Below are positions 50,617 to 54,139 of a stretch of DNA of 64,000 bases, one piece after another. The translations under genes were made by a program, and so were the position numbers. Position 1 is the first letter of the stretch. Each line of letters starts with the position of its first letter. Below the pieces are notes generated by a model. The model was given only the letters and a program-made list of their open reading frames with translations. It did no database searches and was not told the origin of the DNA. The stretch comes from Dehalobacter restrictus DSM 9455 (lineage in GTDB: Bacteria; Bacillota; Desulfitobacteriia; Desulfitobacteriales; Syntrophobotulaceae), in the NCBI RefSeq assembly GCF_000512895.1, contig NZ_CP007033.1, positions 2,715,001-2,779,000 on the forward strand, read 5' to 3'.

Positions 50617-50974
50617 TTAAATCCCTCCTTCGTTAACGCTTACGCTAAAACGTATTTTTAAAAGAACTCATTTATTCCATTATCTCTAGAAATCTACTCA
50701 CGTCTCTATTAATGTTAGCCCTTCTTAACTACGGATGAGAGTTTAACCGGGTCATGTTCAGTTCGTTATAATATTCAGCGCCATTATTGCCAACGATATA
50801 TTTTTAACGTCCAGCGGTGTTCTGACCGATATACCACAAAAATCAAAACCACTAAATGCTGTAACATAGCATTTAGTGGTTATTAAAATGGACAATCGGA
50901 CAATGGGCAATAGCCGATCCTATGAGAATTCATCACTCGGATGGAAGAAGTCAATATCGCAGCGCTGCCTTGCT
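50617..50974. other. Non-coding stretch with hairpin and cassette-like motif
   Basis: No gene seen. It contains the 14-bp hairpin at 50847-50881 and, at 50805-50815, the motif TAACGTCCAGC that matches 10 of 11 bases at 52647-52657 beside the SDR gene. Confidence 0.5.
50847..50881. terminator. 14-bp perfect hairpin, probable terminator
   Basis: AACCACTAAATGCT and AGCATTTAGTGGTT around GTAACAT, 94 bases after the small membrane-protein gene. Confidence 0.65.
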
Positions 50975-51552: not shown

Positions 51553-51656
51553 GAGATACACCTTCTTTCAAATTTAGATTGCATTAGTTTGCAATTGTAT
51601 ACTAATGCGAAGAAATATCCGACTATTTTCGTCCGCACCAGGAGGGCGCGGTTGCG

Positions 51657-51714
51657 TCCCAACCGCATGCATATCGGCAAAGTCGAGGTAATGCCGTGTT
51701 AGACGACGTTCCGG
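51657..51714 (-). other. Candidate attC-like end of the SDR cassette
   Basis: Minus strand: GTCGTCTAAC, where GTCTAAC fits the integron R'' consensus RYYYAAC and contains the SDR stop codon, followed by a CGGCA/TGCCG stem and GTTGGGA. The last 16 bases of the unit are the inverse of its first 16 (one mismatch). The opposite end of this site is poorly defined. Confidence 0.4.
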
Positions 51715-52622
51715 TTCCCCAAAGCATCCTCTAGAGCAGACTTTAAATCAGGAAATTTAAACTCGAAACCAATATCACTAATTTTTTGGGGAATAGCCCT
51801 TTGACCATGTAATAACATTTCAGACATCTGGCCTAATGCGATTTTCAATACAAATTCGGGAACTGGAAACCATGATGGTCTCTTTAAGACTTCTCCTAAA
51901 ATCTTTGAAAAGCCTTTCATTCTTACTGGTTCTGGTGCTGTTCCATTTACAGGACCAGTAACCTCATCATGTTCGATTATAAATCTAAACATCCTGATTA
52001 GATCTTGAATGTAAATCCACGGAAGCCACTGATTTCCTTTACCTAATGGACCACCGATGTAATATTTAAAGGGTATAACCATTCTTGTAAGAGCACCTTG
52101 ACTACCCAATACTACCCCAATACGAATAGTAACGACTCGTGTAAATTCATTTTGGACCTTGTAAGCTTCATCTTCCCATTTCTTGCAAACTTCCGCAAGA
52201 AAATCCTGTCCAGGACCTTCACTCTCGGCTATCTTATCATCCTGACGAGGCCCATAGTATCCTACAGCTGAAGCATTTATTAGAACTTTTGGATTCATAG
52301 TCCCATCGTTTATAGCGTTAACAATGGAACGAGTAGTATTTATCCTACTATTCAATATCTCTTGCTTAACTAAATTGGACCAACGACGGTTACCGATTGA
52401 TTCTCCTGCAAAATTAATAACTACATCAAATTCCTTAAAATCATAAATTGCAGATAGAGGAGAAATGTTATCCCACTCTATTAAATCAACATTACTTTCA
52501 ACTTTGTCTGCTGTGAATTGCCGATTTCTTGTTATAACAGATACTTTATAACCACTAGACATTAACTCCTTGGTTAAGTTCCTTCCTAAAAAACCTGTTC
52601 CACCAATAATCAAAACATTCAT
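51699..52622 (-). CDS. TIGR01777-type SDR (NAD-dependent epimerase-like) protein
   Basis: 307 aa. Rossmann opening IIGGTGFLGRNLTKEL, VINFAGESIGNRRW, active-site-like SAVGYYGP and the family-typical LLHGQRAIPQKISDIGFEF at the C-terminus; this is the YfcH/TIGR01777 group, a branch of atypical short-chain dehydrogenases of unknown substrate. GGAGGT lies seven bases before the ATG. The stop TAA is inside GTCTAAC. The gene fills a unit bounded by inverted 16-base ends that resemble integron cassette ends. Confidence 0.9.
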   Translation of the reverse strand: MNVLIIGGTGFLGRNLTKELMSSGYKVSVITRNRQFTADKVESNVDLIEWDNISPLSAIYDFKEFDVVINFAGESIGNRRWSNLVKQEILNSRINTTRSIVNAINDGTMNPKVLINASAVGYYGPRQDDKIAESEGPGQDFLAEVCKKWEDEAYKVQNEFTRVVTIRIGVVLGSQGALTRMVIPFKYYIGGPLGKGNQWLPWIYIQDLIRMFRFIIEHDEVTGPVNGTAPEPVRMKGFSKILGEVLKRPSWFPVPEFVLKIALGQMSEMLLHGQRAIPQKISDIGFEFKFPDLKSALEDALGNRNVV

Positions 52623-52633
52623 ATTTCATACCT

Positions 52634-52717
52634 CCGGAATGTCGTCTAATGTCCAGCCGTTCCCGAAGCGTCATATTACATTTATATATTCTAAGTTTTG
52701 GGAACGGCGTGTTATCT
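52634..52717 (-). other. Candidate attC-like site before the SDR gene
   Basis: Minus strand: AGATAAC, a 9-bp stem CCGTTCCC/GGGAACGG region (52700-52708 with 52656-52664), a loop of about 35 bases and ATTAGAC, then the SDR ribosome site. The stem layout is that of an attC site, but the outer boxes deviate from consensus (ATT for GTT). Confidence 0.4.
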
Positions 52718-53057: not shown

Positions 53058-53891
53058 TCAGGAATTAACTCTAAGCGGCTTCTTGGGGGGCGGCCACTCT
53101 TTAATCGTCCCTGCCATATATTCAATCAGCCGGTTAGCCTCTTTTCTTTTCTCTTCTTTCAGCTTCGGATCGATATGGGTCAGATTGGTGAGTGCTGTTG
53201 TCAGATCGAAGAAGGTATCGGCGATCGTTTTGCAGCAAGCGTCGCATTTTTCTACATACTTGATGTGAGCGTCCGGGTCATGTTCGGTTTTAAGGTTGTG
53301 GGTCGGCAGGGCGGGTTGACCGGCAGAGAAGGCTTCTGCTTTGACATTCTCCGGATTTGTTGGCATTGACGGGGTCTTAGCCTGCTCCTTTTTTAATTCG
53401 GAGATGGTGCTGTCGATCGCCTTCAGTCCTTTTTTAAATGCTTGATTCTCCTGAAGCGCCTGTTCCTTTTCCTGATTGGCCTTGTCTCTGTCCTGAAGTG
53501 CCTGCTGCAGCTTCTTGGTGGTCATACCGCCGACATCATTCTGCTCGATGAATTCCTCCCGCTCCTCTGCCGGTAAACCCAGAAGGAGGAGGGCCTGGGT
53601 GTAAGTCATATTCGACATTGATGTCGATTTTGACGTGTCCAATCCGTCAGAGAAGTTTGGCCCGTACTCTTGGTAGAGCTTTATCAGTCTTTCGGCAGTT
53701 TTCTGGGAATAGCTCACAGACTCTGCCAGCCAATTACCCCATTCCCCGTGTTTGACCAAATCCTTGGCTTCCAGCAAACGACGGCCGATTTCAATGGCAC
53801 CGGCAAGCAGGATTTTTTTGGTTTGGCAAGTTATCATATTTATTTCAGCCGCAATGATAAGCGGCGTGCGTTCGGTGACCGGATTATCCAT
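53058..53891 (-). CDS. DUF3102 protein, mobile-element type
   Basis: 277 aa. The N-terminal 100 residues match DUF3102 (EIGRRLLEAKDLVKHGEWGNWL read in parts, then SQKTAERLIKLYQEYG), a domain common on phages and conjugative elements and thought to act in DNA binding or replication. A long coiled-coil (about 120-180, ALQDRDKANQEKEQALQEN) and a region with CDACCKT follow. The ATG at 53891 has AAAGGAT upstream. It sits in the mobile-element-rich tract. Confidence 0.7.
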   Translation of the reverse strand: MDNPVTERTPLIIAAEINMITCQTKKILLAGAIEIGRRLLEAKDLVKHGEWGNWLAESVSYSQKTAERLIKLYQEYGPNFSDGLDTSKSTSMSNMTYTQALLLLGLPAEEREEFIEQNDVGGMTTKKLQQALQDRDKANQEKEQALQENQAFKKGLKAIDSTISELKKEQAKTPSMPTNPENVKAEAFSAGQPALPTHNLKTEHDPDAHIKYVEKCDACCKTIADTFFDLTTALTNLTHIDPKLKEEKRKEANRLIEYMAGTIKEWPPPKKPLRVNS

Positions 53892-54139
53892 ACCGCCCAT
53901 CCTTTTATTATTCGTCTAAATACAGCATACGCAGATAGGCTTCAGATGGTGAGGGCTTAGTTTCTACTTATTAATGAAGCAGAACCCCGGCCAATTTTGA
54001 TATGCTCCTCCTTGCACTAAACAGTTTTTGTTATTTGAACTGTCTACTACGAAGGGAGCATATCAATTGGGACGGTCTTTTTATTGCAGGAAAATACTTC
54101 CTTTCATCGAATATTAACAGAACAAGGGAGGGATTTATC

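Follow-up and report, generated by a model that had tools for sequence, protein, structure and literature searches.

The SDR unit described here is very probably a cassette of a sedentary, integron-like gene-capture system native to Dehalobacter and its relatives. The sequence basis for this reading is the anatomy of the arrays, the cassette boundaries, a rule that ties the head of each cassette to its tail, covariation, a bias towards folding of the bottom strand, linkage to a recombinase, and movement of the unit between genomes. This gene-capturing system is common in Dehalobacter and its relatives and has probably escaped notice because its recombinase is missing the feature by which integron integrases are defined.

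The prevailing view is that the Firmicutes have almost no integrons, for reasons that are unclear (PMC9024848). The additional domain of IntI is regarded as a requirement for integron recombination (PMC9668308, citing Messier and Roy). Both views are challenged by arrays in which dozens of cassettes adjoin a recombinase without the insert, and such arrays open a natural way to examine how tyrosine recombinases acquired the ability to work on folded single-stranded DNA. They would also give the dehalogenating anaerobes a route of gene acquisition of which we found no mention in their genome papers. The words integron, integrase and recombinase are absent from the main text of the PER-K23 genome paper (PMC3910700). 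Our search of open full texts gave no account of integrons in Dehalobacter or Desulfitobacterium, nor of integron integrases of the type described here; the subscription literature lay outside this search, so an earlier description is possible.

The SDR cassette in the window

The window is a 64-kb stretch of the 2,943,336-bp genome of Dehalobacter restrictus PER-K23. The features that matter here all lie on its minus strand:

51654..52649, minus: SDR gene cassette, from the recombination point 52650/52649 to the remnant of its own attC
52634..52649, minus: cassette head TTAGACGACATTCCGG, complementary to its own tail by the rule followed in 193 cassettes
51699..52622, minus: SDR gene, a TIGR01777/YfcH-type NAD-dependent epimerase of 307 aa
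51698..51714, minus: cassette tail CCGGAACGTCGTCTAAC, which holds the R'' box GTCTAAC as well as the stop codon of the SDR gene
51654..51704, minus: the cassette's own attC with the L'-R' half gone (weak profile match 51652-51709)
52644..52717, minus: complete attC-like site, R'' AGATAAC at 52711-52717 and R' ATTAGAC at 52644-52650

The SDR protein scores 349 bits with NCBIfam TIGR01777, over the cut-off, and matches Epimerase and DUF1731 in Pfam. A first-pass annotation of this DNA had described the gene as packaged between 16-base inverted ends with one mismatch, and these are present at 51699-51714 and 52634-52649 (16 nt, 94% complementary, 919 nt between). Its attC-type R'' box GTCTAAC, with the stop codon inside it, is confirmed in the cassette tail. 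Taken alone the pair of ends is borderline: with uniform base frequencies, a 64 kb window should contain about 0.2 pairs of 17 nt that differ at no more than one position, and further pairs of comparable quality are present. The ends become decisive because 193 cassettes have the same kind of head/tail complementarity and the same mismatch at position 11. The one mismatch of the SDR unit is an A opposite a C at position 11, which is the fixed mismatch of those cassettes.

The annotated stem GCCGTTCCC/GGGAACGGC (52656-52708) is also real. It is the inner stem of the attC-like site at 52644-52717, which our covariance model R1 finds with 67.9 bits (E 3e-13, search of the PER-K23 genome), and a whole-genome search with its 60-bp stem region finds three more copies, at 318652, 319436 and 2440699. 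An Rfam search gave tmRNA as the sole match here. We read this site as the remnant of a preceding cassette that is otherwise lost. The complete attC belonging to the SDR cassette itself is retained in a 98% identical copy (L198, genome G002).

Relatives have the unit in three or more further contexts, one of them a 19-site array in which intact attCs flank it. Its identity to the units of relatives is 98% (G002), 90% (G001), 81% (G003) and 72% (G004, inside an array). The homology stops at 52646-52648 on the head side and at 51654 or 51692-51708 on the tail side, that is, at the cassette boundary, and the flanks differ. The first-pass annotation had proposed looking for the unit elsewhere and had named conserved synteny with the same flanks, along with the lack of an attC covariance match above threshold, as the result that would speak against it; synteny is not conserved, because the SDR unit occupies other contexts in relatives. 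We regard the SDR gene as an integron-type gene cassette, movable between genomes.

The suggestion of a CALIN-like remnant in a Firmicute describes the locus well: there is one cassette, an attC upstream of it, an incomplete attC of its own and no adjacent integrase. The remark that no integrase is in view is correct for the window, but the same chromosome has one at 2442130-2443382. Two smaller suggestions fell away. The adjacent DUF2935 gene had been taken as a cassette-like neighbour, and it is out as a second cassette since relatives carry it without the SDR gene or attC. The motif noted upstream of that gene, at 50805-50815, has no match to the covariance model. Separately, the gene at 53058-53900 of the window belongs to a family with many DNA-similar copies across Dehalobacter genomes, which also occurs next to another cassette cluster (near 323 kb); the gene is perhaps a repeated one of mobile or phage origin.

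Cassette arrays and the folded site

Model R1 finds 15 attC-like sites in the D. restrictus genome. Such DNA is present in 29 of 61 relatives, and an iterated profile finds 276 sites in the loci fetched from them. The largest array has 52 sites in one 60-kb stretch of a 4,321,753-bp genome, all in a single orientation, and others have 31 and 27. Sites keep one orientation within arrays, and several genomes have the same recombinase, often intact, ahead of the array. The 193 intervals between neighbouring sites (median 827 bp) are our cassette set, and the longest open reading frame is in sense in 166 of them. Homologous cassettes in different genomes have no common neighbour in five out of five testable pairs, with up to 97% identity between genera.

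Of the two attC sites that bound a cassette, the head that follows G^TT is complementary on the R'' side to the one at the cassette's own end, not to the one at its start. Leaving out head positions 1-3, which are partly set by the search pattern, 7.9 of 11 positions pair with the cassette's own end, against 5.0 with the R'' of the head's own site and 4.7 at random (p 1e-23). Across the 193 cassettes the pairing reaches about position 19. Position 11 is complementary in only 5% of them because an A faces a C, and this fixed A.C mismatch reads G.T on the bottom strand. The idea that the extended pairing is wholly novel is weakened by a class 1 cassette control, which pairs over 12 nt too.

It is at this point that a mobile unit unrelated to integrons has to be weighed. 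A gene flanked by inverted repeats, MITE-like or IS-derived, that resemble attC by chance would account for the SDR unit taken by itself, which shows just 16-nt inverted ends and no recombinase alongside. It would not account for end sequences that vary among cassettes yet stay self-complementary, or for arrays where as many as 52 units point the same way, and the junctions can be explained without target-site duplication. We give such a unit next to no probability: the array structure and the own-head/own-tail rule refute it, and the array statistics rule out a chance palindrome or a MITE.

The fold was tested as a two-helix structure on 37 diverse sites. Double-sided changes fill 112 cells against 43 in shuffles, and the signal collapses when the structure is slid. 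The inner 13-bp stem aligns without indels in all 37 and therefore has no extrahelical bases. The central spacer is unpaired, 1/5 nt, and loop length varies between families. The top strand has 173 A.C mismatches against 35 G.T, and each A.C becomes a G.T pair on the bottom strand. The bottom strand is the more stable in 175 of the 193 cassettes folded in circular form (mean -23.6 vs -20.2 kcal/mol, p 2e-30). The simplest reading is selection for bottom-strand folding, consistent with known integron chemistry.

Several observations in the PER-K23 genome are recorded here for their own sake. A third cassette cluster lies at 1771134-1775541 (G000:C1) with attI-like repeats near 1776980 (L082), and no recombinase of the type described below was matched at this cluster. 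Lone attC-like sites are found at 396183, 729926, 738297 and 1675030. Beside the cassette cluster at 315259 is a protein with a match to ADPrib_exo_Tox (PF03496; L008:9370-9984, minus strand).

The recombinase and a proposed mechanism

The tyrosine recombinase at 2442130-2443382 adjoins an array 324 kb from the window locus and is on the same strand as the attC-like copy at 2440699, some 1.3 kb away. Its similarity to an intact relative spans three frames, so the D. restrictus gene is broken by two frameshifts. Sequencing error in the 454 and Illumina assembly is a possible cause that we do not favour. A profile search of the same genome gives no other long match to this type of recombinase, and a separate scan of genome contigs with the recombinase gave one match, which is unrelated. 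The first cassette after the broken gene holds a small protein and an acetyltransferase-like gene, antisense to the array (L010:16152-16912, plus strand), and the pair has the look of a GNAT-type toxin-antitoxin.

Elsewhere the gene is directly upstream of the first sites and co-directional with them (G003, G004, G011, G015, G032 and G046), and in G005 an intact copy stands at the end of a contig. The intact enzymes have 363-366 aa and conserved catalytic residues. For the N-termini of these HARP-type enzymes, HARP (PF07443) is the best or only match in seven of eight, and one of the eight passes the Pfam cut-off (36 vs 25 bits). In the AlphaFold model of a metagenomic relative (L209) the N-terminal part has a pLDDT of 30-55. 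By sequence, the closest PDB entry is VchIntIA (2a3v, E 4e-40), matched in two blocks that skip residues 184-239. Where both landmarks are matched in HARP-type enzymes, the spacing from GKGxKDR to RHxFAT is 68-69, compared with 109 in all six IntIs examined (covering class 1 and class 2 as well as a cyanobacterium and Firmicutes). The HARP-type recombinase is without the 41-residue insert specific to IntI. The NCBIfam integron model TIGR02249 gives it 207-218 bits, under the cut-off of 265, and the XerA model scores it equally high. A tree places the HARP-type enzymes in one group (94/91, one short member included) with an IntI clade (100/100) beside them, and two Dehalobacter Xer-type proteins fall outside both groups, with thin outgroup sampling.

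Could the sites instead be the work of XerC/XerD or another recombinase of the host, with the HARP-type enzyme as a passenger? Several genomes have attC matches and no full-length HARP-type match, and the parity of the XerA and integron models would fit this as well. Against this, the enzyme sits at the head of arrays, co-oriented with them, in many families, and the HARP-type clade is separate from the two host Xer-type proteins tested. We attach very little credence to the passenger reading and take the HARP-type enzyme as the one that acts on the sites.

The system would then work as follows. The recombinase, composed of an N-terminal HARP-like domain, a SAM-like core-binding domain and a catalytic domain without the insert, is encoded upstream of the cassette array and in line with it, with a presumed attI directly past its stop codon. 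Each cassette is a short unit, usually one sense gene with an attC downstream. In the single-stranded bottom strand of a circular cassette the attC is predicted to fold into one long hairpin, the likely substrate, in which about 20 bp from the cassette ends and an inner helix of 13-18 bp are separated by the 1/5-nt unpaired spacer. Cleavage by the recombinase would be at G^TT, and the cassette would be joined either to attI or to a further attC. Human HARP (SMARCAL1) binds tightly to forks, to single/double-strand junctions and to Holliday junctions (PMC4035279), and we infer that recognition of the hairpin junction, the role of the missing IntI insert, has passed to the HARP-like domain. The SDR copy in the window is now probably fixed, unless a recombinase acts in trans, because that of PER-K23 has the two frameshifts.

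The presumed attI is placed by position just behind the recombinase stop codon. A cassette-head motif occurs 70-210 bp past the stop (within 230 bp) in 14 of 19 loci fetched around matches in other families, with a background of 0.06 per region. Perfect inverted repeats in this region, as putative binding sites, are only modestly enriched (13 vs 7.1, maximum of 12 in 20 shuffles).

Relation to known integrons and spread in the phylum

The closest comparison is the superintegron of Vibrio cholerae (VchIntIA, 2a3v). Both systems have a tyrosine recombinase at the head of the array, tandem cassettes and imperfect palindromic attC sites; in both the R'' and R' boxes end in AAC and begin with GTT, respectively, the head is complementary to its own R'', and there is a bottom-strand bias. 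The Dehalobacter-type recombinase differs by having no IntI insert and by its N-terminal HARP-like domain. Its attC differs in the 1/5 spacer, the uninterrupted stem without extrahelical bases, and the head/tail pairing, which reaches about 19 nt and includes a fixed mismatch. The recombinase and the details of the attC are what appears to be new in this integron-like system. The window locus also resembles a CALIN, being a cassette and attC with no nearby integrase (taken as at least one attC and a cassette); it differs in having one cassette only and in that the genome holds a matching, non-canonical recombinase. Smyshlyaev et al. 2021 (PMC8138268) describe an integron-like subgroup of simple tyrosine recombinases, like ours in being simple, and in its main text we found no arrays or attC sites described for members without the insert. 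Limnochorda pilosa HC45 (PMC9024848) is likewise an integron in the Firmicutes; it was called by an IntI-domain criterion.

It is important to separate the definitions. The cassettes share one orientation, each ends in an attC, and the head that completes R' is complementary to its own R'', as in integrons. A strict definition asks for the IntI-specific additional domain, which this recombinase lacks. Canonical attC sites have two or three extrahelical bases (PMC2727003); here the L stem has none, while the unpaired central spacer and variable terminal structure are as in canonical sites. On all sequence evidence, then, the system is integron-like, yet it stands outside the strict definitions of IntI and canonical attC. 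The IntegronFinder method requires the IntI-specific domain (PMC9668308), so HARP-type recombinases would be missed and their arrays called CALIN at best. IntegronFinder 2.0 reported one complete Firmicute integron (Limnochorda pilosa) and a few CALINs (PMC9024848).

Model R1, which is tuned to sites of the Desulfitobacteriaceae type, finds sites in 26 of 398 genomes of the phylum, and the recombinase profile has strong matches in 38, some of them to enzymes without the HARP part. Nine of the 26 have both (Fisher p 2e-4); many of the attC-bearing genomes sampled have no full-length recombinase match. More sites obeying the head/tail rule with the same mismatch are present in other families and on the metagenomic contig L209, and in distant families the rule holds from the first head to the first attC. 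This architecture recurs in many families of the phylum.

Of the 398 genomes, two have a canonical IntI over the cut-off, and neither belongs to the order. These enzymes have the insert (G363, L108 and L114; G182, L109), the landmark spacing in G363 is 109, and the G182 frame extends far upstream of the usual start. One might argue from them, and from sites and cassettes that look like those of integrons, that the window locus is an ordinary CALIN, the residue of an integron with a canonical IntI that the genome has since lost. We consider this very unlikely: no canonical IntI over the cut-off was found in the sampled order, arrays of the same type stand directly behind an insert-less recombinase in several genomes, and the attC-like stem has no extrahelical bases. 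The Dehalobacter-type system is most likely a distinct, overlooked integron clade. We also think there is a reasonable case, held with less assurance, that this Firmicute clade is ancient and never acquired the IntI insert (or lost it), that a HARP-like structure-binding domain and hairpins free of extrahelical bases let it read folded attC, and that its integrase escapes searches for the IntI domain. The IMG/VR contigs L212, L225 and L226 carry recombinases without the N-terminal HARP part near weak, opposite-strand matches to the attC-like model, and these are possibly further variants.
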